Shown one piece after another: positions 4,224 to 43,666 of a stretch of DNA of 63,473 nt. Source of the DNA: Sphingobacteriales bacterium (GTDB taxonomy: Bacteria; Bacteroidota; Bacteroidia; Chitinophagales; JADJOU01); NCBI GenBank assembly GCA_021297855.1, contig JAJTHM010000022.1, positions 1 to 63,473 on the forward strand. The letters run 5' to 3'. The translations under genes and the position numbers were made by a program. Below the pieces are notes generated by a model that saw only the letters and a list, made by a program, of their open reading frames with translations, was not told the origin of the DNA and did not search any database. The first letter of the stretch is position 1, and every line of letters starts with the position of its first letter.

Positions 4224-5933
4224 TCAGTTTTTAACTAGTTTAAAAGATTGAATTTGATTCTGAGTTCGTATCAGCATCTGATAAATTCCAGAGGGCAAGA
4301 GACTTATATCCAATGGATGTTTAACATCAGTAGTATGATACATCATTTTCCCCAAAGAGTTATAAAGTTTCAATTCATCAATAGTTTCACGTGAATTAAG
4401 CTGTAAGATATTGTCTGTTGGATTCTGAAAACTAAACGATGAAATTTGAGTAGAGTTATTTATACTAGACGTGCAATTTTCTGAGAATTTATATGTATGA
4501 TAGTTAGAAATAGTATTCCCACCAGCGAATGCAAATTTCACTGCATAGTCTTGCGCTGCTCCAACAGAAATCCCCTTTTGTATAAATGTAAATTTATTAT
4601 TAGCACTATTGGAAGCTCCGTATTCGTTCGATGGCGATTTAGTTAGTAGAAATCCAACGACGTCTGTTTTATCTGTATCTAAAAGTTCGTATTGGATAAT
4701 TAATTCATTTCCGAATGGATCGAATAAATAATTGTATCCATTGGAGAAATTACCTTGTAGAGCTGAATTTGAATTTCCTGAACAACTCGGTATAGGAAGG
4801 GTTTTAGCATTTATATTAATAGGAATAGATTGATTTCCACTGGAATCTTTAACCGATATTTCAATGGGATAATCTGTATTTGGGTTTAAATTATATAGCT
4901 TTATACTTTTTTCAATCCTAGAAAGGCCATTTGTAACTAATGCAGTGCTATTATAGTTAATGGAATATTGTAATTGGTTAGAAGTATCTTCTGCATTCAC
5001 AATCAACTCTATGGCTGTACTACTTATATTCCCGATTCTAGCTGTGACGTTTTGAGGAGGCAGAGTATCTTTACTTATCGTATCTTTAGGAATACTGTCT
5101 TGTTTTTGGTAAATACGGACATAATCAATCTCCATTGCAGCTTGTGTGAAGGTGCTAGGAACACTGCCAGCGACTCCGCCCATAGCTATATTTAATAGTA
5201 TATATTGAGGTTTGTCGAACGGCCATGTACCGGCGTTCTTTACACCAGGATTATAGGTATAATAAGCTACATTGTCTAGTAAAAATGTGATTTGATTTGG
5301 AGACCAATTCATGGAATAGACATGAAAATCTGTGCCGAGATTATTTGCTAATCGACCCCTTTTATTTACGGTGCTGCCCGAAGAAGAAGTTGTATGAATA
5401 GCGCTAGCAAAATAATTGGAAGGCTCCGATGGAAAAATTCCACATTCCACAATATCTATTTCGCCACAGGCGGGCCAATTTGTAGTTCCGTATTGAGCAG
5501 AAAAGTAACCTCCTGGTTCGATAATATTCTGCCCCAATAACCAAATAGCAGGCCAGACCCCTGCACCGAGAGGCATTTTGGCTCGAACATCTACACGACC
5601 GTACGTGAAAGCAAATTTGGAGTTTAAACGAGCGGAGGTGTAATTTTTGGTTACACTTTGGTTTGTATAACTTTCTTTCTTAGCTACTATGTTTAGCATT
5701 CCATTGTTTGAAAATGAGTTGGAACTTAAATCTGTATAATGTTGTAACTCTCCGTTATACCAGGAATTGCCATTGGGAAGTAGGGTTTGATGATGCCATT
5801 TGGACGATTCTATAGCACCATTGGCATCAAACTCATCACTCCATACTAGTTTTGAATAGACGACATCGACTTGAGAGAAAATAGAATTTTCTATGCCAAA
5901 TACGAATGTTAAAAATAAAACTAATCTATTCAT
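4224..5933 (-). CDS. Secreted GH16 beta-glucanase (laminarinase-like) with T9SS sorting domain
   Basis: A 569-residue secreted endo-beta-1,3(4)-glucanase. It has a signal peptide (about 1-20) and a GH16 catalytic domain (about 25-275) with the ExDxxE signature GEIDIVE (nucleophile Glu158, Asp160, acid/base Glu163). A fibronectin-III-like domain (about 288-380) follows, then an unassigned beta-rich segment (about 380-495), and a C-terminal T9SS type A-like sorting domain with LKLYNSLGK and a GIYQM-type motif. T9SS cargo is released or anchored at the cell surface, so this enzyme should cut polymeric glucan outside the cell. Its ATG at 5933 directly follows the TAA of the GH30 gene, so the two are translationally adjacent. 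Confidence 0.93.
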   Translation of the reverse strand: MNRLVLFLTFVFGIENSIFSQVDVVYSKLVWSDEFDANGAIESSKWHHQTLLPNGNSWYNGELQHYTDLSSNSFSNNGMLNIVAKKESYTNQSVTKNYTSARLNSKFAFTYGRVDVRAKMPLGAGVWPAIWLLGQNIIEPGGYFSAQYGTTNWPACGEIDIVECGIFPSEPSNYFASAIHTTSSSGSTVNKRGRLANNLGTDFHVYSMNWSPNQITFLLDNVAYYTYNPGVKNAGTWPFDKPQYILLNIAMGGVAGSVPSTFTQAAMEIDYVRIYQKQDSIPKDTISKDTLPPQNVTARIGNISSTAIELIVNAEDTSNQLQYSINYNSTALVTNGLSRIEKSIKLYNLNPNTDYPIEISVKDSSGNQSIPININAKTLPIPSCSGNSNSALQGNFSNGYNYLFDPFGNELIIQYELLDTDKTDVVGFLLTKSPSNEYGASNSANNKFTFIQKGISVGAAQDYAVKFAFAGGNTISNYHTYKFSENCTSSINNSTQISSFSFQNPTDNILQLNSRETIDELKLYNSLGKMMYHTTDVKHPLDISLLPSGIYQMLIRTQNQIQSFKLVKN

Positions 5934-7457
5934 TTACGATGGGTCTATAACTATGGTTTGAAGTGATTCGGATGGCAATACTATTTTATGATGCAATTTA
6001 TTTAATTGAAGGGTAATAGTTTTTTTGTTTTTTGAAGGATTGAATAAAACAACGACTAAAGATTTATTTGGATTCTCGATAGCTGTGGTCATAACATCAC
6101 TATCATTTGTTTTTTTCCATGCTATGCGTTTCGCATCAGGTCTTATAAACTTACTAAAATGCTTCATCACATAGTATAGAGGTGTGAAATAAACTTCATT
6201 GAGCTGCGTATCTGCGATGATGGGTGCTATGCACCAATTTTTGAACCAGTTAGGACCGCCTTGTTTATCCAATACCATATTCCAGTCAACCCATCCATCT
6301 ACACCGTGATTCAAGCAACCTATGATGTCGGTAGCATATCTATGTACAGGGGCATACTTTGGATGCAAATGTTTATCTGCTTCGCTAGCCCAGTCCCATC
6401 CCCAATCTGTGGCTTCCTTTTGCCAATACCAATCGTCATTTTTCCACCGCGGAACTTCGGCATCAATGCATGCCTCCGTTTGTATTAAATGCTTGCTTGG
6501 CTTCTTAGTATAGGCATAATCTAAAGCGTTTGGAAAATAATCATAAGTGCTCTCATACCAGTGTATAGCTGCCCCAGCAAAGTATTTAGACGAAGATTCA
6601 GAGCGGTACATTTCATCTACCCATTCTTTGAGTCCAGCCCTATTTTGGTCATAGCCAAGAATCTTCACATGACCCCACTTTGATTTTTCTAATTGAGGTC
6701 CCAAATTAAATTCTACAAAATCCGTCATTTCCTTCGGCGAGAAATGTGTACTTTCCCAGTTATTTCCATTGCCATGAGGTTCGTTGATAACAGTCAAACC
6801 CCATATATCAATTCCTTCATTTTTATAGGCGTCTAAATATTTTTCAAAGTATAGCGCAAATGTAGGATAGTATTTAGTCAATAAACTACCTCCCACCCAG
6901 TGATTATTGTCTTTCATCCATGGTGGGCAGGTCCATGGAGAGGCAATGATTTTAAATTTATTATTGGAAATTTCTAAGGCTTGTTTGATAATGGGGATAA
7001 TATCTTGGTAATCATGTGCTATGGAAAAATGTTTTAAAGACGTATCATGTCCTACCGAGGCATAGGTGTAATGTTTTAAAGAAAAATCAGTAGAAGCCAT
7101 AGTGGTTCTAGTTAATGAATAATCTGCACCCTCTTTACTAAAGTATGCTTTTAGTATTTGATTTCTATTTTCAGCATTCATTTTATTCAGCAAATGACAA
7201 CTTGCTTCTGAAAAAGAACCTCCAAATCCAGTTATAGTTTGAAATTTTTGGTCTGGAAAAATTTCTATTTCTATGTTGGATAAAATAGAATCTAGGTTCA
7301 TTTCTTGACTTATTTTTTCGCATTTTAAGCCATTTCTGGATGTTTGATATATTTCTAGTTGCATAGGTTTAGGGTTGCAGCTAAAGAGCATAAATGCACA
7401 GCAAATCGAAGCAGATATAGCTATAATTGAAGGCATAATATGTCTTTGTATTGTCAT
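5934..7457 (-). CDS. GH30 glucanase lipoprotein (beta-1,6-glucanase-like)
   Basis: A 507-residue glycoside hydrolase of family GH30 (clan GH-A). A lipoprotein signal with lipobox LFSC puts the lipidated Cys at about residue 27, so it is probably on the outer membrane. The catalytic acid/base is in VINEPHGN (Glu226) and the nucleophile in IQTEACID (Glu328). The GFGGSFSEA motif near residue 78 is typical of the glucosylceramidase/beta-1,6-glucanase branch. Laminarins carry beta-1,6 side branches, so a debranching role beside GH16 and GH17 fits well; this is inferred from context and subfamily resemblance. It lies 5 bp after the secreted GH17 gene and abuts the GH16 start. Confidence 0.9.
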   Translation of the reverse strand: MTIQRHIMPSIIAISASICCAFMLFSCNPKPMQLEIYQTSRNGLKCEKISQEMNLDSILSNIEIEIFPDQKFQTITGFGGSFSEASCHLLNKMNAENRNQILKAYFSKEGADYSLTRTTMASTDFSLKHYTYASVGHDTSLKHFSIAHDYQDIIPIIKQALEISNNKFKIIASPWTCPPWMKDNNHWVGGSLLTKYYPTFALYFEKYLDAYKNEGIDIWGLTVINEPHGNGNNWESTHFSPKEMTDFVEFNLGPQLEKSKWGHVKILGYDQNRAGLKEWVDEMYRSESSSKYFAGAAIHWYESTYDYFPNALDYAYTKKPSKHLIQTEACIDAEVPRWKNDDWYWQKEATDWGWDWASEADKHLHPKYAPVHRYATDIIGCLNHGVDGWVDWNMVLDKQGGPNWFKNWCIAPIIADTQLNEVYFTPLYYVMKHFSKFIRPDAKRIAWKKTNDSDVMTTAIENPNKSLVVVLFNPSKNKKTITLQLNKLHHKIVLPSESLQTIVIDPS

Positions 7458-7462
7458 ACTAT

Positions 7463-8704
7463 TTAATTTCTATATTTGATTTTAACATCATTCAGCAATA
7501 ACTCTTCGTCTCCATTATAGGTTTTCACTATTGGATTTCCATCGCGGCTTAGATTTTTAAATGTTCCTTTATCAACTTCACTCCACATTGCATATTTTGC
7601 TTTACCGTCTATAGTAAAAAGTCCGAAATGATTTTCAGATCCATTAGTATGATTCACATCTTTCCAGATTTCATCAAAAGCTTCAAAGTAAAAAATGGTA
7701 ATTCCTTCCTTTTTGGACCATTCCATCATACTGTGATAGTATATAGCTTCTTTATATTCATCTGTAGCCATGCTTCCTTCATTTCCATAATGATTGCCAG
7801 ATTTTGTTGCCCATCCAGTTTCGCCTATATGAACTGGCTTATCGATATGATGAGATTTCAAATAGTTTTTTACAGATTTATATTGATTTTGTGCATAATC
7901 CACTGCCCTGTACATCAATGTATTCAATTGTTCTTTTTTTGACAAATACGTTTCATCCTCATTGACCCCCCAAAAAACTGAATTGTAATATGTATCGTGC
8001 ATGGGGTAGGTATGGATAGAAATGTAATCTACGGCGTGACATAATTTTTCCAGCGTTTCATTGTGATAGCTGGACTCGCCGCCCCATGAAGCAAAATTGT
8101 CGGAAGAAGTAATCCATACACTTTTAGATAGCTGATGATTCTTTTTTAGATTTTGTAAATATTCTACCCATTTTAGTATAATCTCTGGCTCTACAAAATA
8201 TTTATCAGCCCACCTGACCATAGCTTCATTACCAACGGAAATTACTTTCACGATTTCAGGGTATTCATTAGCTAGCCGCACAGCTTCTTTAATTTCTGTT
8301 TCATTTCTGGCGCTTTCTTCGCTATGAATAGGTTCATGTTCAGTCCATGCGTTTTTACAATCTATCCATGCGCCTAACATGAGATACATTTCAAAGGATT
8401 TATTTTCCCTTTTTAATTCTCGGATTGCGTTGAGTACATTTTGAGTTTCCACTAAATGCACATTATACATTCTTATGAATTTAATATCAAGTGCCTGTAG
8501 AATTTTTAAATCCTCTTTTATTTGTAAAATGGTAGGCTGTATATTTCTAGAGTTACTTCTATAGCCGCCATAGCATATAGCCTTATGCGACTGCTGGAAC
8601 AGTTGCTCTGCAGCTAATTGCCCTTTGTTTTGAGCATTGGTATTGAATACGCTATACATTATATTGAATAGTAAAAAAATATATCTAACCTTATTAGTCA
8701 TCAA
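7463..8704 (-). CDS. Secreted GH17 glycoside hydrolase
   Basis: A 413-residue GH17-type protein (exo-beta-1,3-glucanase-like branch) with an N-terminal signal peptide ending near NTNAQ (about 24). The acid/base motif is ISVGNEAMV (Glu160) and the nucleophile motif HIGETGWAT (Glu295). It is more divergent from the other two GH17 domains here, lacking YPFWEG and having IHTYPMHDT in the corresponding place. It is probably periplasmic or surface-exposed, acting on laminari-oligosaccharides; there is no T9SS domain or clear lipobox. Its start overlaps the GH149 stop by four bases (8701-8704), indicating translational coupling. Confidence 0.87.
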   Translation of the reverse strand: MMTNKVRYIFLLFNIMYSVFNTNAQNKGQLAAEQLFQQSHKAICYGGYRSNSRNIQPTILQIKEDLKILQALDIKFIRMYNVHLVETQNVLNAIRELKRENKSFEMYLMLGAWIDCKNAWTEHEPIHSEESARNETEIKEAVRLANEYPEIVKVISVGNEAMVRWADKYFVEPEIILKWVEYLQNLKKNHQLSKSVWITSSDNFASWGGESSYHNETLEKLCHAVDYISIHTYPMHDTYYNSVFWGVNEDETYLSKKEQLNTLMYRAVDYAQNQYKSVKNYLKSHHIDKPVHIGETGWATKSGNHYGNEGSMATDEYKEAIYYHSMMEWSKKEGITIFYFEAFDEIWKDVNHTNGSENHFGLFTIDGKAKYAMWSEVDKGTFKNLSRDGNPIVKTYNGDEELLLNDVKIKYRN

Positions 8705-11700
8705 ATTTTTAGCATTACATTTAAAGACTTTATTTCACCTGATTTATCGTAAATTTTCTTGGCGTTTTCTTTGCTTAGTGTAGATCCATCTATCGTTTCT
8801 ACCTTATCATGATAGTGGATGATGATTTGATTCAAACTGTGAACTGTATAAACTACAGGTGTTTGACAAATAGAAAAAGCGAGCGAGTTTTTAGGAATGA
8901 CCATTTCTTGTTTATTGCCACTTATTGAAACAAAATCTACCGTTTTTGACTTAGTGAAAAATTCCTTTTTGGAAAGAAATGATGGACTAAATTCGATATT
9001 TCCATTCATGTATTTTACCCCCAATTCCTTGAATCGAGTAATAATGTCTTCTTTGACTTGTCCCGTCATACCTGGCTGCTGTGCACCTCTATGAGAAGGG
9101 GTATGTGAATAAGGATCAGTAGGGAAGGCTCCATATTCCAGGGGCGTTTTATATATTCCTAAGCCTATACCTGTTTGTTCAAAATGGTGAGTAAGTTTAT
9201 TTTTTAAATCTAGGTCACTAGGAGAATCAAAATTTTCAATTGTTTCTGCAATCGCTAAATAGAGTTTGGATACCATGTGCCAATAAATAGATCCCAACCC
9301 TTCATAGCCGAAAAATGTACCAGATCTTCCAGTAAATGATTTGTGATTAAAAACTTCTTCGTACAAATTAAGGATAGCCTGGGTATCTTTCTTGACTTGA
9401 TTCTTGTACTTTGATTCTCGCCCTAATTTTTTTAAAGCTTCTAGCAGTTTATCCGCATTATTGAAGCTCGAATGGAAATGAAAATTCCCTTGAATATCTT
9501 TATTTAATATGACTTCATTGCCTTCTTTCTCTAAGATTTTTATAAGTGGGATATTCGATACTTGCTTTTCAGAAAGATTGTTTTTTTCTAGAAACTTTGG
9601 TAGATCTTTATTTGGATACAGTATATAGCTTTGGGCATCGCTGCGATACAAAGAACTAGCTCTCAGTGCATCTAACAATTGATTACTTTGGATGCTAGAT
9701 AAATAACCTGAACTCAAAACGGCAACTTGACCTTCTAGCATTTCACTTAGATGGGATACTTCGATTCCATCTTCAGTATAAGTCATGAGATTATAAGCAT
9801 GATAGAGGTGATCTTCTCGTTTATTAGCTGCTATGCTGTGTTCGATAAACTCAAGACATACTTGAATATAATTTTTCAATCCTTGGACAGAATGGGTGCG
9901 CTTTTTACCCCAGAAACCATAGGTATATAAGTGCATACGATAATCCGAGGCTACAGTTCCTAGCAAATCGAGAATCATTTTTCGATCTTGATCGTTGATG
10001 TCACCTTGCAGCATTTCCCTATGCTTTAGAAGTCCTTCTCTGATACCGTGATAAAAATCTACTAATTCGTTGGATATTTTGATGGACTCTAAATCTGTTT
10101 TATCTAATATACTTTCGAAAAATTTGAAAAAGCGTCTCAGGTAGTAGAGAGTCACCATGGATAAACCATTTCCTACTAAGGCATTATTGGCATCGTTCCA
10201 TTCTGGTCGCTGTGTATTCATCCAAATGCCACCTCCTGGTACAAAATTGGATATTTTGGAAAGTGAAGTAGCTAGTAATTTTTCAATTAAATTGACGCGA
10301 TATATGTCATCACTATTGTCTTTTACTAGTGCACCATCTGCACCTATTTTTTCGCATCTTTTCGTTATTTTGGCTTCCCATTCATAGTCGTATTCTATAG
10401 TCACACGTGCATTTTTTACCAAGTCTTTGTAAGGTTTAATTCTGTATGGCACAGCTGCGTAAACAAAAAAATCTTTATCTAGATAGTACTCGAGTTTCCC
10501 AGGTACTACTTTCTCCATAAACTCCAGAAATTTGAGTAGATAGATAATTTGATGATCCCCCCAGTAGCCTATATTCGACCATGGATTATGCGTTTCGATT
10601 TTTTCCCAATCAAATCCATCTTTGGTCACTCTATAAGGGTTGTATCCATCAAAAGTAGTGGCATTGAGAAATTTAAAAATCATTCCTTCAATAAACATAG
10701 GATAGGAATAGGCTAACGCCTCCCAATTTTGAAAAATATCTCGCCAATTCCCCTCATAGTCTAAAATTTTAGAGCCATCTTCATTTTTAGTATTGATTGA
10801 AAATTTATTCCAAGGACGGCTAGGGTCTCCATGTCTTCTGCTAAATTTAAGCGGAAGATATTCGATACTCAATCTTATGAAATCTGCATCGGAGTGTTTC
10901 ACGATTTGATCTAGCAATGCAGTGTATTGGAACTCACTAGGCAAATCGTGGATATAGTCTAAGTTTTTACTAAAGACTGTGGAATTCGCTTTTTCCAAGT
11001 AGGCTATAAAGTCAGTTTTTTCTATAACATAGTTTTGATCAAATGTACCACCACGCATCACATTGAAAAGTACATTGGAGAAATGTCGATTATTTTTTCT
11101 ATCGTCGGCCGTAAACTGCAGTCCATCTGATGCTGCAATGAGTTTAATTAGGTTTTCCGTGCCGAATCGTATATCTTCTTTTAGGAGCTCTTCTAGCTTA
11201 GAATTGTTTTTTATACTATCTTTCAATGTTACTACTTGCGAGTGATTTTTATTGACATCTGCGACTATATGCCATTGCTTCAGTTCTTTTTTTTCTAGGT
11301 CTATCTTTTTTACAATAAAATAAGCTCCCCGTTCTCCTTTGACATCCCATTCTGGATCTGCTATTCCATGGTATCGAAACCAATTGAGCTGTCTAGATGA
11401 AACCAAATGAGAAGCGCCTTCGAGCCCTATAGACCAGGCTATATTGCAATTGAGTGATTCACTCGGCTCTGCCTTATCTACTATCACCGCGCTGAGTGCA
11501 AATATTCCTAATCCAGATTTTTCGTGTAGTTCATTTCTTTTATATGCATCGACGAGATTGCTGGTACTTGTTTGCAAATCACTCGGCACACCGCTGGGCA
11601 TGATATTTTGAATACCATCTAATACAGTTAGAGTGTATTTTTTATCTGAAAAATTCAGTAATTCTGTAGTTTTTACGAATCCAAATCGATCACTCGAAGC

Positions 11701-12090
11701 CCACTTATATCGGAAAACTATATTTAAGTCAAATAATATTTCTTCAAAAATGATACTATTCCCATAAATACTTTTATACAAATTTCTTTGAAAATTATAT
11801 TTTTCATTGAATCTGTGCGAAAACGGTTCCCATACGAAATCTGATTTTGTACCATGCACACGTAGGATTGTTTTGCTCCCCGTATTGTCCCATGAATGAA
11901 TTATTTTATCATCTGTATAGTATGGAAATAGAGCATGTTCGGCGTTTTTTCTACCAGCACTTATGCCTCCATTACTCGCTATGAATAACCAATGATTCGA
12001 ATCACTTACTATACTCATAAAAAATGGTCGCATTTGATTACAGTTTTCTATTTTGTAATACTTCTCGCCATTAATTTCCTCAATATTCAT
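8701..12090 (-). CDS. GH149/GH94-like beta-1,3-glucan phosphorylase, cytoplasmic
   Basis: A 1129-residue protein without signal peptide that resembles the large inverting glucoside phosphorylases. Size and architecture fit GH149 beta-1,3-oligoglucan phosphorylase, known from Euglena and bacteria, better than the shorter GH94 enzymes. An N-terminal beta-sandwich region is followed by an alpha/alpha barrel. The motif RPEWNDANNALVGNG has Asp633 where the GH94-type general acid is expected. A C-terminal GMTGQVKEDI motif may help bind phosphate. The predicted reaction releases alpha-glucose 1-phosphate from beta-1,3-glucan oligosaccharides, saving ATP. The neighbours are all beta-1,3-glucan enzymes, supporting the substrate. 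Family assignment is from recognition, not a search; GH94 or an uncharacterised relative remains possible. Confidence 0.78.
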   Translation of the reverse strand: MNIEEINGEKYYKIENCNQMRPFFMSIVSDSNHWLFIASNGGISAGRKNAEHALFPYYTDDKIIHSWDNTGSKTILRVHGTKSDFVWEPFSHRFNEKYNFQRNLYKSIYGNSIIFEEILFDLNIVFRYKWASSDRFGFVKTTELLNFSDKKYTLTVLDGIQNIMPSGVPSDLQTSTSNLVDAYKRNELHEKSGLGIFALSAVIVDKAEPSESLNCNIAWSIGLEGASHLVSSRQLNWFRYHGIADPEWDVKGERGAYFIVKKIDLEKKELKQWHIVADVNKNHSQVVTLKDSIKNNSKLEELLKEDIRFGTENLIKLIAASDGLQFTADDRKNNRHFSNVLFNVMRGGTFDQNYVIEKTDFIAYLEKANSTVFSKNLDYIHDLPSEFQYTALLDQIVKHSDADFIRLSIEYLPLKFSRRHGDPSRPWNKFSINTKNEDGSKILDYEGNWRDIFQNWEALAYSYPMFIEGMIFKFLNATTFDGYNPYRVTKDGFDWEKIETHNPWSNIGYWGDHQIIYLLKFLEFMEKVVPGKLEYYLDKDFFVYAAVPYRIKPYKDLVKNARVTIEYDYEWEAKITKRCEKIGADGALVKDNSDDIYRVNLIEKLLATSLSKISNFVPGGGIWMNTQRPEWNDANNALVGNGLSMVTLYYLRRFFKFFESILDKTDLESIKISNELVDFYHGIREGLLKHREMLQGDINDQDRKMILDLLGTVASDYRMHLYTYGFWGKKRTHSVQGLKNYIQVCLEFIEHSIAANKREDHLYHAYNLMTYTEDGIEVSHLSEMLEGQVAVLSSGYLSSIQSNQLLDALRASSLYRSDAQSYILYPNKDLPKFLEKNNLSEKQVSNIPLIKILEKEGNEVILNKDIQGNFHFHSSFNNADKLLEALKKLGRESKYKNQVKKDTQAILNLYEEVFNHKSFTGRSGTFFGYEGLGSIYWHMVSKLYLAIAETIENFDSPSDLDLKNKLTHHFEQTGIGLGIYKTPLEYGAFPTDPYSHTPSHRGAQQPGMTGQVKEDIITRFKELGVKYMNGNIEFSPSFLSKKEFFTKSKTVDFVSISGNKQEMVIPKNSLAFSICQTPVVYTVHSLNQIIIHYHDKVETIDGSTLSKENAKKIYDKSGEIKSLNVMLKI

Positions 12091-12131: not shown

Positions 12132-12971
12132 TTATTTATAAACTCTGACATAGTCCACCTGCATGGTCTGAGGAAAGGCAGTATTGACATTCGGGAAACC
12201 CACGAAATTGCCTCCTACAGCCACATTAAGTATGATAAAAAACGGCTGATCAAATACCCATTTACCTGACACATCTGTTTTATTAATTCTATTATACAGA
12301 TAACCATCTACAAAGTAATCTATTCTATCCTCATACCATTCTACGGCATAGATATGAAAATCATTATCAAATCTATCGTTCATAAGTGAATATGTACCAG
12401 ATTTAGAGTTACCACCAGAGTAGCCTGGTCCGTGCAGGGAACCAAAGACCGTATTCGGTTGATTACCTTTTTGCTCCATGATATCTATCTCACCACAGTT
12501 TGGCCATTGCACGGTGTCTATATTGTTACCTAGCAGCCAAAAAGCAGGCCATATACCTGGACCAGATGGTGTTTTTATGCGTGCTTCAATTTTACCATAT
12601 TTCTGAGAGAATTTTCCTTTCGTCATTATTCTTCCAGATATGAATTCTCTATTATTTAGATTTTCTTTTTTGGCGACTATTCTCAGATTTCCTTTACCAT
12701 CTGTGGATACCACATCTAGTCTATCGGTATAATATTGTAATTCTTGATTGCCCCAGCCATCATTATTAGGACCTACTCCTATGTTGAAAGACCATTTTGA
12801 TACATCTGGACTAGCTACTAGATTATCATTAAATTCATCGCTCCAGGCAATTGTCCATTCGCGTTTAGGAAGCTTTTGGCCTTCGCCATCTTTACTGCAT
12901 GTTATAAAAGTACATCCTATACTTAATAAAATAATATAAGTAAGGATATTATAGGATTTAAAATTTATCAT
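12132..12971 (-). CDS. GH16 beta-glucanase lipoprotein
   Basis: A compact 279-residue GH16 laminarinase-type enzyme with a lipoprotein-like signal. Cys20 or Cys25 could be the lipidated residue. The catalytic signature is GEIDIMEQKG (nucleophile Glu161, Asp163, acid/base Glu166). The aromatic-rich PGIWPAFWLLG stretch and the C-terminal MQVDYVRVYK strand are typical of GH16. Unlike the GH16 at 4224-5933, it has no accessory or T9SS domain. Anchoring in the outer membrane would let it shorten glucan next to the putative enzyme-barrel protein. It lies 30 bp after the binding lipoprotein gene and 41 bp before the phosphorylase gene. Confidence 0.92.
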   Translation of the reverse strand: MINFKSYNILTYIILLSIGCTFITCSKDGEGQKLPKREWTIAWSDEFNDNLVASPDVSKWSFNIGVGPNNDGWGNQELQYYTDRLDVVSTDGKGNLRIVAKKENLNNREFISGRIMTKGKFSQKYGKIEARIKTPSGPGIWPAFWLLGNNIDTVQWPNCGEIDIMEQKGNQPNTVFGSLHGPGYSGGNSKSGTYSLMNDRFDNDFHIYAVEWYEDRIDYFVDGYLYNRINKTDVSGKWVFDQPFFIILNVAVGGNFVGFPNVNTAFPQTMQVDYVRVYK

Positions 12972-13001: not shown

Positions 13002-14399
13002 TTAATTATGAAAGAAAATATTATCTAAATAGAAGTTTTTGAAATTACCCAAATCGCTATCTGAGAGAATAATCAATCCTAGTTTAGATTTTTTAGGCAT
13101 ATCGAGCGGAATCTTTAATGTCTTCCAGCCACCTGCTGCTAAGGAAGAATTGGTAAATGTGACCACTTTGTCCGTATCATCACCCCCTCCATCAGTGCCA
13201 TTAGAGCCAAAGTCACGAACGGTGATTTTGAATTGTATTCCAGGATTGAGACTCGCGTCAGGAACGAAGATATCCATACTGAGGGTGCTGTAATTCGTAG
13301 CATCAAATACTGGATTAGCAAAACTGATGCCCACAAAATTAAAATCAGTATAATTGAGTATATTGTCAGTGCCTATTTTGAAATCTGCGGAGCGCGTTTT
13401 TTGGAAAGGTTCCCAATATCCATTGAAGAAATCTATAGGACGGTTCGCATAGTTATCACTAAACAAGGAAACAACACTGCTACTTGGGTATGTAGGTGTA
13501 GGTGCGTTTATAAAACCAGATACATTGACGACCATAGAACCATTGGCTTTCTGACCAGCAAGACTTGCAGAAATCACAGAGTAGCCTAAATTCAATGCAT
13601 TGACTTTGCCTGAATTACTGACACTAGCTACCGTAGGATTCGTAGATTCAAAAGTGAAATAGGAGGCTGGTGTAGGCATTTTGAGATTGGTGCCATCTGG
13701 GAGGCTAAAATTGGTAAATAAACCAGTAATGGGCGTCTCTACACCCTTAGCAGAATTATTGGAGGTATTGGCACCATTCATAATCATGGATTCCCTTCTT
13801 AAAATAGTACCTAGTTTCTCAAATTTGACTTCATCTATCCAAAAAGAATAGCCTGCGCTATCTTCATGACCCTCGGCAAAATAAAACATGCCTCTTTCAT
13901 TTGTCAATTTGGATGGGTCTGGTATAGGAATGTAATATTTCTGCCAAAAAGTGGTTACAGGGACGTTGTAAATAGCTGTAGCATACGTATTGGCTCCTAA
14001 ATCATTTCCAAAACCCACTTCATTTATTTTGGCACTTTTTGTTGCCTTTGCCCAGAAAGTTAATACATTATAACCACTTAGATCTCTTCCTGATGCTAGG
14101 AAATAAGCCCCACCAGCATAGCTTCCTCGTGGGTCATTCACTATGGGTACATCTACTCGCATGGAAGCCGTGGATTGGTTATAAGTGACCTCTTTGTCTG
14201 CCTGAAATGCTGTAACTACAGAGCCTCCAAAAGCGGCATAATTCATACCTGGGGTGAAGCCGTCTAGAAATACATCGCCATTTTTTGGTCTTATTAATCC
14301 CGATAGGTCATCACTATATTTTTCACATCCTGTGTAGAATATAGAAATACAAGAAACCATTGCAAATAATAGGTATCTACTGAAATTAAATGTGCTCAT
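13002..14399 (-). CDS. Surface glycan-binding lipoprotein with Ig-like (Big2) domain
   Basis: A 465-residue lipoprotein (lipobox YTGC, Cys25) without catalytic motifs. Residues about 35-195 form a beta-rich carbohydrate-binding-like domain (FWAKATKS, FWIDEVKFEKLG). Residues about 215-295 are a bacterial Ig-like fold (FESTNPTVASVSNSGKV). Residues about 305-465 form a second binding-like domain (SLFSDNYANRPIDFF to NFYLDNIFFHN) that resembles the N-terminal domain of the partial gene at the left edge. The three-domain string on a lipid anchor is the usual layout of surface glycan-binding proteins in Bacteroidota glycan loci. It is the second gene of the operon, 21 bp after the enzyme-barrel gene. 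Glucan binding is inferred from context. Confidence 0.8.
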   Translation of the reverse strand: MSTFNFSRYLLFAMVSCISIFYTGCEKYSDDLSGLIRPKNGDVFLDGFTPGMNYAAFGGSVVTAFQADKEVTYNQSTASMRVDVPIVNDPRGSYAGGAYFLASGRDLSGYNVLTFWAKATKSAKINEVGFGNDLGANTYATAIYNVPVTTFWQKYYIPIPDPSKLTNERGMFYFAEGHEDSAGYSFWIDEVKFEKLGTILRRESMIMNGANTSNNSAKGVETPITGLFTNFSLPDGTNLKMPTPASYFTFESTNPTVASVSNSGKVNALNLGYSVISASLAGQKANGSMVVNVSGFINAPTPTYPSSSVVSLFSDNYANRPIDFFNGYWEPFQKTRSADFKIGTDNILNYTDFNFVGISFANPVFDATNYSTLSMDIFVPDASLNPGIQFKITVRDFGSNGTDGGGDDTDKVVTFTNSSLAAGGWKTLKIPLDMPKKSKLGLIILSDSDLGNFKNFYLDNIFFHN

Positions 14400-14420: not shown

Positions 14421-17400
14421 TTATTGACCAATATTGATATGAAGATATGTTCTGATTTCCCACTCGTTTCCGTTTGGAAACCCGATTGCGTTTGGATTCG
14501 GAACCCATGCACCTGCGGCGTTAAGCGTTTGAGTTGGGTTGTATCGAGGAGAATATTTATCCAATGTACGATACGTCGCTCTGATGCCTATTTTCGTCGA
14601 AGGTAATAAGAACCAATCAGGTTTGCCTATTTCTGTGGATAAATCCAGCATTTGCTGCATAGGGTAAGTTAGGTTGAAGTCTCGATGGTAGTCAAACGGC
14701 CCCCAATCATTTACTTTCACAGCATACATTAATTTTACTCTTTTGTATATAGCTCTTAGATCCATACCATACCGTTCTATCCTTCGGGCATCGCTACCGT
14801 TTGCTTGAGCAGTACCGCCGTATAAATTAGCGACTATTCCAAAATTTGAATTGAGCTTGGAAACTATTCTCGAATGAACTTCCCATAAATCACTGGCTGG
14901 TGCTGAACTGGCAAAAGCAAAAGTGGATCTGCCATCACCTAAAATACCAATGGCTGCATCTTGAAGAGTCGGTAAATGTCTATAAACAAATCCAGCATTG
15001 AACGCAAATTTAGCGTCTTCTGTGCGATCATTATCCCATTGATACATCCACGTAGCAGGCGTGGGATCGTACGTTATCAAAAGTTCTCCAGCCACTTGCT
15101 TTCTATTCGCTCTGACTACAAATGGATCATCTAATATATTTCTAGGTCTAGCAGGCGATGCGGCTAAATTGCTAATAGGTCCTTCTAGCGGTCTCTGCCA
15201 TAAGAAATTAGGAGCTATCTGAATATGACCAATTTGGTAGGTAAATCCTGTCAAGAAATTGTATTGGTTTCCGCTACCTGCATCTTTTAATCGCCATCCT
15301 GTAAAAGTTTGAGTGAGATCTGCACCACCATTGGCAACTAATCCCTGGGCAGCACCCGATGCATACCAGTTGACCAATCCTTTGGAATAGGTTATTTTAG
15401 CTTTCCCCCCCCAGTTGTCTTTTGATTGCACCGTGCTTCCAAAAACAATAGGATTTTCTTCCGTGCCACGCTGCACTTGAATAGCCCGTCCATTAAGAGG
15501 TGAGCCACCCCAGATAAGTCCAAAGTCTATACCTAAATTATTAAATTTACGACCTAGATGCAATGTGGCTCGGCGTGTTTTTGGCTGTGGGATAGCGAAT
15601 GAACTCTCGATAAGACCTCTTTGCTCTATATCTTCATGAAACATTCCCGTGATATCAAAGCCTTTTATATTTTTTCTATATTTTAATAGAATGGCAGGGT
15701 TGGCTCCCCACCATAATTCTGGGCCAAAGGCTACTTTGAGTCCTGATAATGCTTTTTTACCTTCAAATTCCATTCCGAAAGGAGCCGTACCATTGTAAAT
15801 ATCCATATTTGGACCATAGTTTGCCTCAGGATACAATCCAAAAAAATCTCCTTCGTACATCCAGTGATAATGACCTGTACGGTAAAAACCATCTAAATTG
15901 AACCAATCATTATTCCAATTATAAGAAGCACTATAAACCTGCACTCTGTTATTATCTTGTATGACTGTGGGACCATTCGGAGTATTAACCGTGACAGGTC
16001 TTCCTCTATTTTCATAAAAAATTTCATCTATTGGGTTTTGTGCCACATTGCCCAGTAAGTTAAATTCTACATTCGCTCGGAAATTAGAACTAGGATTAGC
16101 TTCTACTCCTACAAAATAGGATTGCATGTGGTCAAACCCAAGTTTATTGGGATAGCTTGAATTATTGGCAGGTGCTGCACTTGGAGTGGTGATTAGAGAG
16201 CCCCCAGTGCTAAACGAGGTAAACTGGGCAGAAAGACGACTTAACTTAATTTTACTCGTAGAGTTAGAGGCTAGAGCAGCTTTATCACCTCTCGCTCTCA
16301 ACAATGCGTCTGTCGTATTGAGTCCATTGAAAAATCCTTCAATACTAGCAGCCGTATTTCCCCCTGCTAAAGGATTTAATTTATGAATTTCTTTTAACAA
16401 ATAATACGAGGAACGTGGATATAACTGATAATGTCCTTCGGCGTCTGTAGCCCCTTTGCTACAAATCCCGAACCATTCTTCGTTCATATTATTAGAGCCT
16501 TTTTCATAGTCTTTCAGATAGCCCCCATTAGACCAAGAAGCATTGTTATCATGCACTGCTAGATTTTTAGTTTGTCCATATTTCCACCATCCATCTGAAA
16601 ACTGAAAGGTAAATCCGCCAAGGCTGTTTCCATTTTTACCTACCCCGTGCGCATTTTCATAAATTTCTTTCCAATTTCCCTTTAAATAATGGGCTTGCAT
16701 ATCCTGATCTTCTTGATTAGATATAGCGTTAAATGCATCAGATCCAAATTCTGTGAGTAAAACGGGTTTACCATACTCTTTTTTCACACGGTCATACATA
16801 TCGGTTAAGGATACACCTCTATAGGCATTAACTCCCAATATATCTGCATGAATGCAATGCTTTGCAATAAGATCTAGGAATAATAGGTCTCCATTGCAAA
16901 TAGCTACAGGGTGCGATTTATCTATTGATTTCATTATAAATACCGCCTCATTAAATAATTTGTACATAGACTCGGCTCTCAAGGTAGATTTTCTATCCTT
17001 GACAGGTATATTCTCCGTTTCTGCTCCTTCCCAGAATAGCCCATAATTGTTCTCATTTCCCAAGAGAAATAATAATAATCCCTTCGTATCTTTATAATCC
17101 TCAACTAATTTCTTTACTTCAGAAAGCAATATTTCTCTTGTTTTTGGGTCAGCGTATTCGGTATTCGGTGTCCATACACCATTTATTGTCAATCCATATC
17201 TGCCAAAAGAGTGATTTAGCATTGTGTATATGCCAAAGTTGTTGTGAATATATTCTATCCATTTCTTAGGTATTCCGCTATAGACTCTTATGGTATTGAC
17301 CCCCATGTTTTGAAGCAGACCCATTTCATCGTCTAGTGCCTTTTTGATAAATGGGTCTGATTGACCCCAGAAATTGTAACTATAATTCGTGCCGATAGGA

Positions 17401-17555
17401 TAATAATCCCAATTCATTCCTTTGACTATCATAGGTTTACCATTGACAGTCAATTGATCACCTGTGGCATCTCTTTGTATAACAACTTCATCAGTTTGTG
17501 ACCAAGAATTGAACGTAGAAATCGTAAAAAGAATTAATGTAAATATTTTACTCAT
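14421..17555 (-). CDS. Glycoside hydrolase fused to outer-membrane beta-barrel-like domain
   Basis: A 1044-residue first gene of the glucan operon. A signal peptide ends near SWSQ (20). Residues about 30-400 are a clan-A TIM-barrel hydrolase resembling the GH2 C-terminal/GH5/GH72 group, with VNGKPMIVKGMNWDYYP, NTIRVYS, acid/base FLLGNENN (Glu168) and nucleophile LLTEFGSD (Glu269). From about residue 430 the sequence changes to alternating aromatic beta-strands (VEANPSSNFRANVEFNLLG, NVDFGLIWGG-like repeats), continuing to the C-terminus NEWEIRTYLHINIGQ. This second half looks like an outer-membrane porin-type barrel. The protein could cut glucan at the surface and pass the product through its own pore. 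Enzyme and barrel halves are seen; the pore function and substrate are inferred. Confidence 0.78.
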   Translation of the reverse strand: MSKIFTLILFTISTFNSWSQTDEVVIQRDATGDQLTVNGKPMIVKGMNWDYYPIGTNYSYNFWGQSDPFIKKALDDEMGLLQNMGVNTIRVYSGIPKKWIEYIHNNFGIYTMLNHSFGRYGLTINGVWTPNTEYADPKTREILLSEVKKLVEDYKDTKGLLLFLLGNENNYGLFWEGAETENIPVKDRKSTLRAESMYKLFNEAVFIMKSIDKSHPVAICNGDLLFLDLIAKHCIHADILGVNAYRGVSLTDMYDRVKKEYGKPVLLTEFGSDAFNAISNQEDQDMQAHYLKGNWKEIYENAHGVGKNGNSLGGFTFQFSDGWWKYGQTKNLAVHDNNASWSNGGYLKDYEKGSNNMNEEWFGICSKGATDAEGHYQLYPRSSYYLLKEIHKLNPLAGGNTAASIEGFFNGLNTTDALLRARGDKAALASNSTSKIKLSRLSAQFTSFSTGGSLITTPSAAPANNSSYPNKLGFDHMQSYFVGVEANPSSNFRANVEFNLLGNVAQNPIDEIFYENRGRPVTVNTPNGPTVIQDNNRVQVYSASYNWNNDWFNLDGFYRTGHYHWMYEGDFFGLYPEANYGPNMDIYNGTAPFGMEFEGKKALSGLKVAFGPELWWGANPAILLKYRKNIKGFDITGMFHEDIEQRGLIESSFAIPQPKTRRATLHLGRKFNNLGIDFGLIWGGSPLNGRAIQVQRGTEENPIVFGSTVQSKDNWGGKAKITYSKGLVNWYASGAAQGLVANGGADLTQTFTGWRLKDAGSGNQYNFLTGFTYQIGHIQIAPNFLWQRPLEGPISNLAASPARPRNILDDPFVVRANRKQVAGELLITYDPTPATWMYQWDNDRTEDAKFAFNAGFVYRHLPTLQDAAIGILGDGRSTFAFASSAPASDLWEVHSRIVSKLNSNFGIVANLYGGTAQANGSDARRIERYGMDLRAIYKRVKLMYAVKVNDWGPFDYHRDFNLTYPMQQMLDLSTEIGKPDWFLLPSTKIGIRATYRTLDKYSPRYNPTQTLNAAGAWVPNPNAIGFPNGNEWEIRTYLHINIGQ

Positions 17556-17834: not shown

Positions 17835-20543
17835 ATGAATTCATTTATAGCATTTTTATTTATTTTATTTATTCATGTACAAATATTTGCTCAACAGATA
17901 GTAGATAAAGGAGTTCCATATATTAGCAATTTTAAAAATCAACAAGATAAAATTTACACACATACATGGGATTTAGACGAAGCCTCTAATAAAATAATGT
18001 ATTTCGTCAATGATAAAGGATTGCTAGAATTTGATGGGAATCAATGGAATCTATATAAAGGAAGTAAGGGAATTACTCGCTCTTTGAAAGTTAAAGCTAA
18101 TGATCTGATTTACACAGGTTCTGATAATGATTTTGGCGAATGGCGATTGAATAAAAATAATCAGTTTGAATATAAGAGTTTGTATGATAAATTCAAAAAC
18201 AGCAAGTTAATAGAAGAATTTTGGAACGTATATCTACTTCAGGAAAAAATCATATTTCAGTCTTTTAATCATTTATATATCTATCATAATGGTATTTTTA
18301 CTATTTTAAAAGCACCTAGTAGATTTGTTGCTGGAAATCAATTAGCGGGTAAAATTTATCTTGTAGATGAGAAAGATGGATTGTTAGTCTTTGATGGGGA
18401 TCAGATCAAAAATATGGAATTATCCACGTCTCTAGACTATGGTGATGTCATTGCCATAGATGATTTTGGAGGTGATATACATTTGATTACCAAAAGACAT
18501 GGCATTATTAGTGTTCATAATGGCAGAACAATTGCCTATAAACATATCCGTTCATTTCCTAAAAATGATTTAGTTTTTTCTTATCAAAGAATTAATAAAG
18601 ATTATTACGCATTGGGTACGATTCAAAACGGTGTACTAATTCTAAACAATCAGGCAGAAGTAGTTCATAAAATAAGTAAAACCAAAGGCTTACAAAATAA
18701 TACGGTCTTGAGTATGTATTATTCATCGAATGGTTATCTCTGGTTAGGTCTAGACTTTGGGATTGATGCCGTTTTTCTCAAAAGTCCAGTATCTTATTTC
18801 ATAGATTATCAAGGAGCTATAGGGACTACTTATACTGCCTTGTTAGATGCAAGAACACTTTATCTAGGTACCAATCAAGGACTATATAGCATAGAATATG
18901 AAGCGTTAAAAAATAATCGAGACAATTATCCATTTCGATTGATACCCAATTCTCAAGGGCAGGTTTGGACATTGAAAAAGGAGGGAAATATGATACTGGT
19001 AGGTCACGATAAGGGACTCTATAAATTGACGAATAATCAGCTAACTAAGATAGATGATAAGGCAGGGGTTTTAACAATATTGAAGTTAGGAAATTATGTG
19101 ATGACGGGAAATTATGGTGGTGTGCATACCTATAAAATAAATGGAACTCAAATAGCGTATTTCAAAAAGATTCCTGAATTACTCGGTTCATTTAATCAGA
19201 TGTTAAGCAGTAACAATAAGATTTTAGCCTTGCTGCCCAATGAAGGCGTGCTGGAGTTTGAGATAGATTCTAATTTTAAGTTAGTACGAAAGAAAATTTA
19301 CCCGAAACAGCGATTTGGCCAAGACCCTATACAAATATCAATAACTGGTCAGACATTAAATGTATTAACGCTAGATTCGATTTATTCAAAATCTTTATTA
19401 GTAAATGATAAAGAATTTACAGCAAGGAGGTACAGGCAGAATATTATTTTGAAAAATCATATACTTCAAGATAATTTCCTTCCCATTCGTATCGATGATT
19501 CATATGAGTTAAACTCTATTTATAATGGTTTTTCATTGAAGAATCTAGAATTGGTTGGCGATAAAAGTAACTCCAAGTTGGCTGTTCCATTGATTCGGAG
19601 TGTCTTTTCATTTGATAATTTTGAAAAAGTAAACATAGCGGATAAAGGTAAGGTGAAATTTAAGATGAATAATGTCTTGATAAATTTTGTAAGTCCTAGT
19701 TTAGATGAGGATATTGAATATCAATACATTTTATCTCCCTTGCAGGATTGGAGCACATGGGATAAAAAAACGTCTGCAGAGTTTCTTAATTTGAAGGAAG
19801 GCAAATACACGTTCAAATTAAAGGCTCGGCACTTTGATAATGTTTCAGAAATTCAGAGTTTCACCTTTGTTATTCAGCCTCCATTTTATCGAAGTTGGTG
19901 GGCATATATAGTTTATGTCATATTAATGATCCTCTCTTACTATTTTTTAAGATCTTATAATCGTGAAAAGCTCAAGAAACAGAAGATGGAATTGCTCAAG
20001 AAACAGAGAGAATCTATGGAAGAGCAGAGCAGAAAGTACAATGAAAAGATAGAGCAGGAGAGGCGAGAGAAGCTGGAGTTAGAACAAATGCAATTGAAAA
20101 AAACCTTGGAAAATAAGGAACTAGAACTAGCCAAAAAAAGTATAGATCAGATAGAAATCAATACTATGATTACCTCCATTAAGAATAAATTTGAAGAAGT
20201 TCAAAACAATTCAAAAGATAAGCTATCCAATCATTCATTTAATGAGTTCATTCAATATATCGACAAAAAAATAAATAATGAGCTAACCAAAGAGTATGAG
20301 ATAGCCTTCGATAGCTCTCAGACTAAGTTTTATGAAACACTGTTAAAGGCTCATCCATCCTTATCTGCCAAAGATCTGAGAATCTGTAGTTATCTGCTGA
20401 TGAATCTTTCTTCCAAAGAAATAGCCAAGATATTAAATGTAATGCCTACGAGCATAGATGTCAGTCGTTCCAGACTGCGAAAAAAGCTAAATCTTACCGA
20501 AGAAGATAATTTAAGAGAGTATTTGAGTGGGTTTAATGTTTAG
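17835..20543 (+). CDS. Membrane-spanning Y_Y_Y/LuxR-type transcriptional regulator (SusR-like layout)
   Basis: A 902-residue one-component sensor. A signal peptide (1-19) is followed by a long periplasmic beta-propeller-like region (about 25-590) with Reg_prop-type blades such as GLLEFDGNQWNLY and NGYLWLGLDFGID. A Y_Y_Y domain (about 600-685) comes next, then one transmembrane helix (about 690-712) and a charged cytoplasmic coiled coil (about 715-790). It ends in a helix-turn-helix (about 836-902; LSSKEIAKILNV, SIDVSRSRLRKKLNL). There is no histidine kinase domain, so signalling from a bound periplasmic oligosaccharide to the DNA-binding domain is direct, as in SusR-like proteins. It is divergent from the glucan operon, which it probably activates; this is inferred from position. 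Confidence 0.87.
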   Translation: MNSFIAFLFILFIHVQIFAQQIVDKGVPYISNFKNQQDKIYTHTWDLDEASNKIMYFVNDKGLLEFDGNQWNLYKGSKGITRSLKVKANDLIYTGSDNDFGEWRLNKNNQFEYKSLYDKFKNSKLIEEFWNVYLLQEKIIFQSFNHLYIYHNGIFTILKAPSRFVAGNQLAGKIYLVDEKDGLLVFDGDQIKNMELSTSLDYGDVIAIDDFGGDIHLITKRHGIISVHNGRTIAYKHIRSFPKNDLVFSYQRINKDYYALGTIQNGVLILNNQAEVVHKISKTKGLQNNTVLSMYYSSNGYLWLGLDFGIDAVFLKSPVSYFIDYQGAIGTTYTALLDARTLYLGTNQGLYSIEYEALKNNRDNYPFRLIPNSQGQVWTLKKEGNMILVGHDKGLYKLTNNQLTKIDDKAGVLTILKLGNYVMTGNYGGVHTYKINGTQIAYFKKIPELLGSFNQMLSSNNKILALLPNEGVLEFEIDSNFKLVRKKIYPKQRFGQDPIQISITGQTLNVLTLDSIYSKSLLVNDKEFTARRYRQNIILKNHILQDNFLPIRIDDSYELNSIYNGFSLKNLELVGDKSNSKLAVPLIRSVFSFDNFEKVNIADKGKVKFKMNNVLINFVSPSLDEDIEYQYILSPLQDWSTWDKKTSAEFLNLKEGKYTFKLKARHFDNVSEIQSFTFVIQPPFYRSWWAYIVYVILMILSYYFLRSYNREKLKKQKMELLKKQRESMEEQSRKYNEKIEQERREKLELEQMQLKKTLENKELELAKKSIDQIEINTMITSIKNKFEEVQNNSKDKLSNHSFNEFIQYIDKKINNELTKEYEIAFDSSQTKFYETLLKAHPSLSAKDLRICSYLLMNLSSKEIAKILNVMPTSIDVSRSRLRKKLNLTEEDNLREYLSGFNV

Positions 20544-20682: not shown

Positions 20683-22488
20683 GTGCATATTTACGAATTA
20701 GCTTCAATAGCAGATGATATGGAACCAATAATAGATACCATTTTACAAAGTGATTCAACAAAAAGCTTTATAAGTAAAGTTGTTAATTCTGTCGCACAAA
20801 AAGCAACTTCGCATATTATGCAAATTGTCCAAAATAGAATTTTGGAATATACAGTAGAAACAGCTAGAAAATGCTCATATTTAAGAACAATTCTTCATAA
20901 AGAAAATATACCAATTGATGAAATTTACTATCCATTAGGTATAAAAAATTACGGAAAAACTATCATCCCTAAATCAGCAAAAGATATTTTTTCAGAAAAC
21001 TCCAAAGTTGTAATAGTTGGAAAAGGAGGGTCAGGAAAATCAACTTTTTTAAAATATTATTTTATTAATTCTGTTAAGGATTCATACAAAATACCAATTT
21101 TTATAAATTTTAGGCAGTTCAATGAAATTGACCTCTCAGAAAATAAGAAAAGGAAAGAAATAATTAACAATATTTTCTATAAAGAAATAGTAAGCCACCT
21201 ACTCTTTCAAAAGGTTGGAATAGAAACGGATTTTGTTTTATCCTTATTTGAATCTGGCAATATGTTATTCATATTGGATGGTTACGATGAACTTAATTAT
21301 TCAATTAAAAGCTATTTGCTTAATAATTTAGATGAATTTATAATTAGATTTCCAGACAACAATTATTTAATAACAACAAGACCATATACGGATGTTACTC
21401 ATTTAACAAATTTCACAACGTATGAATTATGTGGTTTAAATGTCAAAAACGATTTCAGATTATTTATTCAAAAACAATTATTTAATAACAAAGAATTGGC
21501 GGAGAATATTCATGATACTCTGTTGAAAGACTCGAGTGAAAAATATTTGCCCTTGCTTACAAATCCTCTGTTTTTTACATTATTTATAAACTCCTACGAA
21601 AGCTATCCAAAACTACCACCAAAAAAATCTGAGTTTTATTGGCAAGTTTTCGATGCATTATATGAAAAGCATGAGACTTTTTCAAAAGCCACGTATGTAA
21701 GACCTAGATTAACGATGTTAAAACGAGAAGAATTTGAATTCGTTTTATATGCCTTTTCTTTTGTTTCATACTTCCAAAGCAAGTTTAATTTCAAAAAGAG
21801 ATACTTTGAAGAGACATTAGTTGAAATTAAGAAAAGTTATCATATCTCATTTGAAATACAATCATTTATTGAAGATTTGAAAGTTACTTTATCGATATTG
21901 GTAGATGAGGGAAATGAATTATTGTTTATTCACAGAACTTTGCAAGAGTATTTCGCAGCTAAGTTTATCACTTCTTTAAATAATACTATAAAAAATGATT
22001 TCTTTTTAAAACTATCGGAGAAGCAAGTAAAGTCATCTGAACACAATTTTTTGCTTGAGATACTTAGTGAATTGTTTCCAATAGAATATACCCAAAATTA
22101 TTTACCAGCACATTATAAGCTGTTTTTAACCTCATTTAGAGGAACATACATTCTTAGCTTACCCCATGAAATTGCAATTGAAGAAATAGATAAAGCTTTT
22201 ACTAATTTAATAGAACTTACTTCCTATTCTAATGATTTTAATGAGTTTATACGCACGTTTTTAAATACAAATAGAGATAAATATAATGAATTTCACCCAA
22301 TATTAAAGATACTAGGAACTCCAAGTGTACAAAAATGGAGTAAATATAAACATATGCTAATACTATTTTATAATCAAGAAAAATTTGAAGATTCACTTGA
22401 GCAATTTTTAAAGAAAAAAGATGATACAGTTAAGCCATTTATTGACTTCGCTTTATATCCAAATACAAAATATCCACAACAGCTGTAG
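20683..22488 (+). CDS. NACHT-family NTPase (candidate anti-phage protein)
   Basis: A 601-residue STAND-type NTPase. A helical N-terminal segment (1-100) precedes the NACHT domain with Walker A GKGGSGKST (about 113-121), Walker B FILDGYDE (196-203, with the extra acidic residue typical of NACHT) and a sensor segment LITTRP (229-234). A helical region with FIHRTLQEYFAAKFI (about 415-430) follows, then about 170 residues without recognised repeats or effector domain. The start is GTG at 20683; an ATG at 20719 (residue 13) is an alternative. Bacterial NACHT proteins include experimentally shown anti-phage proteins, some with short C-terminal domains. It is more AT-rich than its neighbours and stands alone, suggesting horizontal gain. 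The defence role is inference. Confidence 0.8.
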   Translation: MHIYELASIADDMEPIIDTILQSDSTKSFISKVVNSVAQKATSHIMQIVQNRILEYTVETARKCSYLRTILHKENIPIDEIYYPLGIKNYGKTIIPKSAKDIFSENSKVVIVGKGGSGKSTFLKYYFINSVKDSYKIPIFINFRQFNEIDLSENKKRKEIINNIFYKEIVSHLLFQKVGIETDFVLSLFESGNMLFILDGYDELNYSIKSYLLNNLDEFIIRFPDNNYLITTRPYTDVTHLTNFTTYELCGLNVKNDFRLFIQKQLFNNKELAENIHDTLLKDSSEKYLPLLTNPLFFTLFINSYESYPKLPPKKSEFYWQVFDALYEKHETFSKATYVRPRLTMLKREEFEFVLYAFSFVSYFQSKFNFKKRYFEETLVEIKKSYHISFEIQSFIEDLKVTLSILVDEGNELLFIHRTLQEYFAAKFITSLNNTIKNDFFLKLSEKQVKSSEHNFLLEILSELFPIEYTQNYLPAHYKLFLTSFRGTYILSLPHEIAIEEIDKAFTNLIELTSYSNDFNEFIRTFLNTNRDKYNEFHPILKILGTPSVQKWSKYKHMLILFYNQEKFEDSLEQFLKKKDDTVKPFIDFALYPNTKYPQQL

Positions 22489-39148: not shown

Positions 39149-39154
39149 ACCCAT

Positions 39155-43651: not shown

Positions 43652-43666
43652 CCATAAGTAAAAAAA

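Follow-up and report, generated by a model that had tools for sequence, protein, structure and literature searches.

Laminarin, a dominant storage glucan of algae, is said to account for more than 10% of the CO2 fixed each year (PMC11345257). In Bacteroidota, its import is usually ascribed to SusC/SusD. The variant 1 laminarin PUL of Formosa, Polaribacter and Prosiliicoccus is given as GH149-GH0-GH17-GH16_3-GH30_1 (PMC10108472, PMC6246565), and the susCD pair is there called characteristic of it (PMC10108472). In Formosa, laminarin induces the proteins of this PUL, and an inner-membrane fusion of a GPH/MFS transporter to GH17, FbGH17b, already occurs in it (PMC6246565). For the endo-beta-1,3-glucanase BuGH158, the catalytic residues are E137 and E220, and the alanine mutants are inactive (PMC7157763).

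We analyzed a 63,473-nucleotide stretch of DNA from a Sphingobacteriales bacterium (contig JAJTHM010000022.1), here called the window. It encodes a protein that joins a GH158-like enzyme to a predicted outer-membrane beta-barrel. The surrounding operon has all the components of the variant 1 PUL (GH149, GH17, GH16, GH30 and the MFS/GPH-GH17 fusion), and the susCD pair typical of that PUL is absent at the locus. We think that the fusion is probably a channel for beta-1,3-glucan in the outer membrane that carries its own enzyme at the inner mouth and has a surface lipoprotein as its partner.

The operon also shares its gene set with a Muricauda laminarin cluster (PMC13188888). The unassigned 'GH0' and 'GH2' of the Formosa-type and Muricauda loci probably belong to the enzyme family of the fusion. 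The parts of those reports covered here mention no barrel domain, whereas one is predicted for the fusion.

A conserved gene fuses an enzyme to a barrel

The open reading frame at 14421-17555 singled out by the original prediction is real, and its strand is minus. The gene starts with ATG, encodes 1044 amino acids and, as proposed, leads its operon, which runs on the minus strand from 17555 to 907. Residues 1-20 form a signal peptide without a lipobox (17496-17555, minus strand; MSKIFTLILFTISTFNSWSQ), and a lipobox-like motif of any kind occurs in just 9 of 160 family members.

We then asked how widely the same fusion is found. A scan for relatives found 583, and the fusion is present in 80 retained loci. 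Across more than 80 loci the fusion is 55-77% identical and lies nearly always within a beta-1,3-glucan operon (GH16, GH149, GH17, GH30, GPH symporter). When a profile of the barrel was run against 395 genomes of the phylum, 35 matched, nearly all with full fusions; a barrel without the enzyme was not found by this profile, which hit only fused genes or their fragments and remnants. In one family, 87 out of 397 genomes match the enzyme domain, most of them with the fused form. Because the full-length form is conserved across genomes and loci, an assembly artefact is ruled out as the source of the fusion. In searches of the open-access journal literature, we found no description of such a fusion or of SusCD-free laminarin import. 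Within that literature the fusion is thus undescribed so far, while the surrounding gene cluster is already known. Two fused genes lie on contigs labelled Verrucomicrobia and Thermoanaerobaculia (L075 and L101), through horizontal transfer or misbinning.

The first half is a GH158-like enzyme

The first half of the protein (16260-17492, minus strand; approximately residues 22-432, including a C-terminal helix) is a GH158-like clan GH-A TIM barrel. The complete active-site pair named in the original prediction is present. E168 in LLGNEN (17052-17054, minus strand) is the predicted catalytic acid/base, and E269 in LLTEFGSD (16749-16751, minus strand) is the predicted nucleophile. Both are invariant across 41 aligned homologues, and the GNEN and EFG motifs are kept in all 159 homologous ORFs examined. 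N167-E168, also invariant, and E269 align as the Asn-Glu acid/base after beta-4 and the Glu nucleophile after beta-7 expected of GH158, opposite GNE and TEWG of BuGH158.

The top fold matches are GH158 endo-beta-1,3-glucanases (Foldseek E 1e-13; VIA Z 27.0, 304 residues aligned, rmsd 5.8, and Z 26.9, 285 residues, rmsd 2.7), among them 9oro at VIA Z 27. Since GH5, GH2 and GH157 enzymes trail by just Z 1-2 in the fold comparison, the GH158-like call rests also on a sequence profile, which matches 6pal (BuGH158) with E 2.6e-5 at approximately 20% identity and aligns the acid/base and nucleophile glutamates. Pfam and NCBIfam searches of the fusion protein gave no family above cut-off and only weak clan GH-A matches; the Pfam GH72 match is weak (E 5e-4, below cut-off). 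A stand-alone form of the enzyme, described below, matches Pfam GH2_C.

The fusion resembles the GH158 enzymes 6pal and GH158(Pro) 9oro in fold, in the positions of the catalytic residues and in its beta-1,3-glucan locus. It differs in falling below all Pfam and NCBIfam cut-offs and in having a membrane barrel directly after the TIM domain, where BuGH158 has an Ig-like C-terminal domain that is absent from the fusion.

The second half is a predicted 24-strand outer-membrane barrel

The second half had been read as porin-like strands, and structure prediction bears this out. Two AF2 models were made, one for the complete protein and one for residues 397-1044 alone. The latter model (pTM 0.69; mean pLDDT 73, which is moderate, from a shallow alignment of >60% identity) has 24 long strands, versus 22 expected of SusC. 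Together with strand statistics, it places the predicted barrel at 14430-16250 (minus strand; approximately residues 436-1042). The model shows no stack of beta-sandwiches, a fold that would have refuted the original prediction.

The strands have hydrophobic and polar faces that alternate well beyond shuffled sequences (z = 5.9). On the N-terminal side, the strands are joined by turns of 2, 3, 6, 2, 2, 2, 2, 21, 2, 2 and 12 residues (mean 5), loops on the far side average 23.5 residues, and the alternation of short turns with long loops has a permutation p of 1e-4. The barrel half contains no cysteine. The protein thus shows the marks of an outer-membrane barrel: it has a signal peptide and a closing C-terminal strand, its amphipathic strands are antiparallel and even in number, and short turns on one side face long loops on the other.

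Every fold match listed for this model is an outer-membrane barrel or a complex containing one. AlgE, MOMP and the OprD family match at Z of approximately 16, the FimD usher at Z 14.3 (354 residues, spanning model residues 37-648) and SusC BT1763 at Z 13.2 (359 residues, spanning model residues 40-648). Among 55 barrel homologues, no Pfam match to a known barrel family exceeded chance, and neither the plug domain (PF07715) nor CarboxypepD_reg was matched by Pfam or NCBIfam in the fusion protein. Invariant positions make up 34% of the lumen face versus 12.5% of the lipid face. Outer loops 3, 4, 7 and 11 hardly vary (conservation 0.91-0.98), in contrast to what is usual in porins; such a sequence pattern would fit a site for substrate or partner.

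The enzyme most likely faces the periplasm

The original prediction had the fusion cutting glucan at the surface, which is probably wrong. In outer-membrane proteins, the short-turn side is the periplasmic side. Because the strand number is even, both ends of the barrel lie on one side. This is the short-turn side, and the linker between the enzyme and barrel strand 1 is a few residues long, so the enzyme should face the periplasm. The loop lengths, the N-terminal placement and the linker make the periplasmic mouth of the barrel the most likely site of the enzyme. Cutting at the surface is more likely done by the two GH16 proteins of the operon.

We considered whether the barrel could instead be an anchor or an autotransporter-like exporter that holds the enzyme outside, with glucan entering elsewhere. 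Enzyme autotransporters such as EstA have, like the fusion, an N-terminal enzyme, in their case a surface passenger, before a C-terminal outer-membrane barrel, which has 12 strands. A helix (414-433) precedes strand 1, some fused loci have SusC/D as well, and the fold relative BuGH158 is predicted to be a cell-surface enzyme within its own locus (PMC7157763). However, the fusion devotes approximately 600 residues and 24 predicted strands to its barrel, versus the roughly 12 of the C-terminal translocator in classical (type V) autotransporters, and its enzyme is on the short-turn side. The helix is also found in the stand-alone versions as the enzyme's last helix and is therefore part of the enzyme rather than pore-spanning. 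The strong conservation of the lumen face would be unnecessary in a mere anchor. These data make surface display of the enzyme unlikely.

The operon has predicted steps in every compartment

Directly downstream of the fusion is the gene for a Big_2-containing lipoprotein (13002-14399, CEKYSDD), the predicted surface glycan-binding partner. It is followed, also on the minus strand, by a GH16 lipoprotein (12132-12971, CSKDGE; Pfam GH16 E 6e-26), a predicted surface endo-beta-1,3-glucanase; a GH149 beta-1,3-glucan phosphorylase (8701-12090; NCBIfam NF058639 1667 bits, cut-off 1150) that has no signal peptide and is predicted to be cytoplasmic; an exported, predicted periplasmic GH17 (7463-8704; Pfam GH17 E 1.3e-7); and GH30, a predicted periplasmic lipoprotein (5934-7457; Pfam E 3.6e-74). 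The remaining genes encode a predicted secreted GH16 with an fn3 domain and a T9SS sorting tail (4224-5933), an inner-membrane GPH sugar symporter fused to GH17 (1856-4219; Pfam MFS_2 E 1.8e-61 plus GH17) and a GH17 without a signal peptide (907-1941). The GH30 protein has an NCBIfam endo-1,6-beta-glucanase match below cut-off, and beta-1,6 activity would be expected of it. A divergent Y_Y_Y/LuxR-type regulator (17835-20543, plus strand) is likely the sensor of the operon, and a regulator of the YYY type adjoins many homologous loci as well.

Acidic residues behind the lipid cysteine are a Bacteroidetes lipoprotein export signal (PMC5080379). They are present in 98 of 109 homologues of the Big_2 lipoprotein and 76 of 92 of the GH16 lipoprotein, and in 5 of 59 GH17 and 7 of 34 GH30 lipoproteins. 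This pattern therefore predicts that GH16 and the binding lipoprotein are at the surface and that GH17 and GH30 are periplasmic. This is a catabolic operon whose predicted steps lie at the surface, in the periplasm, at the inner membrane and in the cytoplasm, and the only outer-membrane barrel that it encodes is that of the fusion. SusC/SusD is absent from it.

Like FbGH17b, the fusion would combine a transport protein and a beta-1,3-glucan enzyme in a single chain in the same kind of locus, but it is predicted to sit in the outer rather than the inner membrane. The symporter-GH17 protein of the window itself (1856-4219) is an inner-membrane counterpart of this transporter-enzyme arrangement.

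The barrel is coupled to the lipoprotein

The lipoprotein gene directly follows the fusion in 142 of the 144 fused loci with downstream sequence, at a median gap of 13 bases (135 were scored automatically and 7 by map inspection, where an ORF-overlap filter had passed it over; a few genomes are included twice). In ten loci the enzyme stands alone, without the barrel, and the adjoining lipoprotein is present in none of the ten. On a tree of the enzyme domain, the stand-alone enzymes fall at approximately six separate places among the fused members; seven changes were counted, one of which, L139, is an artefact. That gene is cut by the contig end and was excluded as a stand-alone enzyme. Another locus (L117) retains a 60-residue remnant of the barrel behind a stop codon. 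The simplest reading of these sequences is repeated joint loss of barrel and lipoprotein, which would mark the two as one functional unit.

In two genomes (G242 and G332), the stand-alone enzyme is beside gyrase-type genes (L116:2962-12007 and L119). Both genomes lack the barrel and a PF07980 SusD, a point against the proposed uptake role.

SusC/SusD is rare near the fusion

SusC/D is missing from the vicinity of 107 of the 118 fused loci with flanking sequence; 9 carry both genes and 2 carry SusC only. Some of these contigs are short, so a few of the absences may be cut-offs. Because 9 of the 118 encode SusC and SusD too, the fusion is not a strict substitute for SusCD, and we reject strict mutual exclusion of the two. 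PF07980 SusD is missing from ten fused genomes, one of which is the window's own (99.97% complete).

Total absence of Sus-type import from the window's own genome is likewise rejected. Family searches, on which its transporter counts rest, gave 19 Plug-domain matches in all. Its only TIGR04056 SusC over cut-off is on contig C32 (L160:5067-9729, minus strand), paired with a PF12771 SusD-like lipoprotein and set among non-CAZyme housekeeping genes. The Plug matches and this pair indicate that another outer-membrane route exists in the genome.

The fusion resembles SusC/SusD in that a large outer-membrane barrel gene, with a fold match to SusC BT1763, adjoins a surface lipoprotein gene in a glycan operon. 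Unlike SusC, it has no plug or CarboxypepD_reg; it has an enzyme in the plug's place, and its lipoprotein is not a SusD. The strand count of its model, at moderate confidence, is 24 rather than the 22 of SusC.

The other outer-membrane barrels bear on a further explanation, in which the fusion is a scaffold or receptor that gathers lipoprotein and enzyme for surface glucan capture without transport, and oligosaccharides enter through general porins or another TonB-dependent transporter. The near-constant pairing with the lipoprotein and the conserved outer loops would suit such a role. The genome has other TonB-dependent barrels, and the stand-alone enzyme occurs either without SusC/D or, in three loci (L113, L115 and L153), in the same gene run as SusC and SusD. 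However, the window's locus encodes no second barrel, PF07980 is absent from ten fused genomes, and a barrel of 24 strands would surround a wide lumen with conserved polar residues on its walls. We regard a scaffold without transport as improbable.

Export of a self-made beta-glucan with a trimming hydrolase, as in AlgE-type exopolysaccharide exporters, is very improbable: AlgE is among the barrel's top fold matches, but the annotated operon genes include GH149, GH17, GH30, secreted GH16 and a sugar symporter and no glycosyltransferase or polysaccharide synthase, and the similar Formosa and Muricauda laminarin loci are described as degradative and the Formosa ones as laminarin-induced (PMC6246565, PMC13188888).

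Proposed mechanism

We favor a channel for beta-1,3-glucan, and passage of glucan through the fusion's own pore, as the original prediction had it, is plausible. An uptake role is supported by the near-constant lipoprotein neighbor, by the stand-alone enzymes that have lost barrel and lipoprotein alike, and by the scarcity of SusC/SusD near the fusion. Architecture and coupling have good computational support; transport and the ratchet are proposals. Surface GH16 enzymes would cut laminarin-type glucan, and the lipoprotein of the next gene would hold the chains and probably dock onto the barrel's conserved outer loops. The chains would then enter through the wide, plugless 24-strand barrel, and the GH158-like domain at its periplasmic mouth would cleave or transglycosylate each one on arrival. 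Because each arriving chain would be cleaved in the periplasm, import would be effectively one-way. Periplasmic GH17 and GH30 would finish the digestion, the GPH symporter would import the oligosaccharides, and GH17 and GH149 would complete the pathway in the cytoplasm.

A broader proposal is that Bacteroidota have, in addition to SusCD, a second mode of outer-membrane glycan import that is widespread in laminarin degraders. Its 24-strand channel would need neither plug nor TonB, a fused periplasmic endoglucanase would act as ratchet for beta-1,3-glucan, and a dedicated surface lipoprotein would assist. We put this forward tentatively, at a little under an even chance. If true, the enzyme-pore fusion and its lipoprotein, present in hundreds of genomes and often without adjoining SusCD, would be an overlooked route for laminarin. 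Counting PULs by susCD pairs would then miss such loci, which are filed as 'CAZyme clusters' (PMC5827456, PMC10108472). The fusion also allows one to test whether an enzyme at the mouth of a pore drives import without TonB.

Elsewhere in the window, a NACHT-domain STAND-like NTPase (20683-22488, plus strand; Pfam NACHT E 3e-7) lies beyond the operon's regulator and is possibly a defence gene. Three large tandem proteins (34664-46741, plus strand) have Sortilin-Vps10-type propellers and T9SS sorting tails, and a cyanophycin synthase-like protein with ATP-grasp and Mur ligase domains is encoded at 51754-54372 (minus strand).
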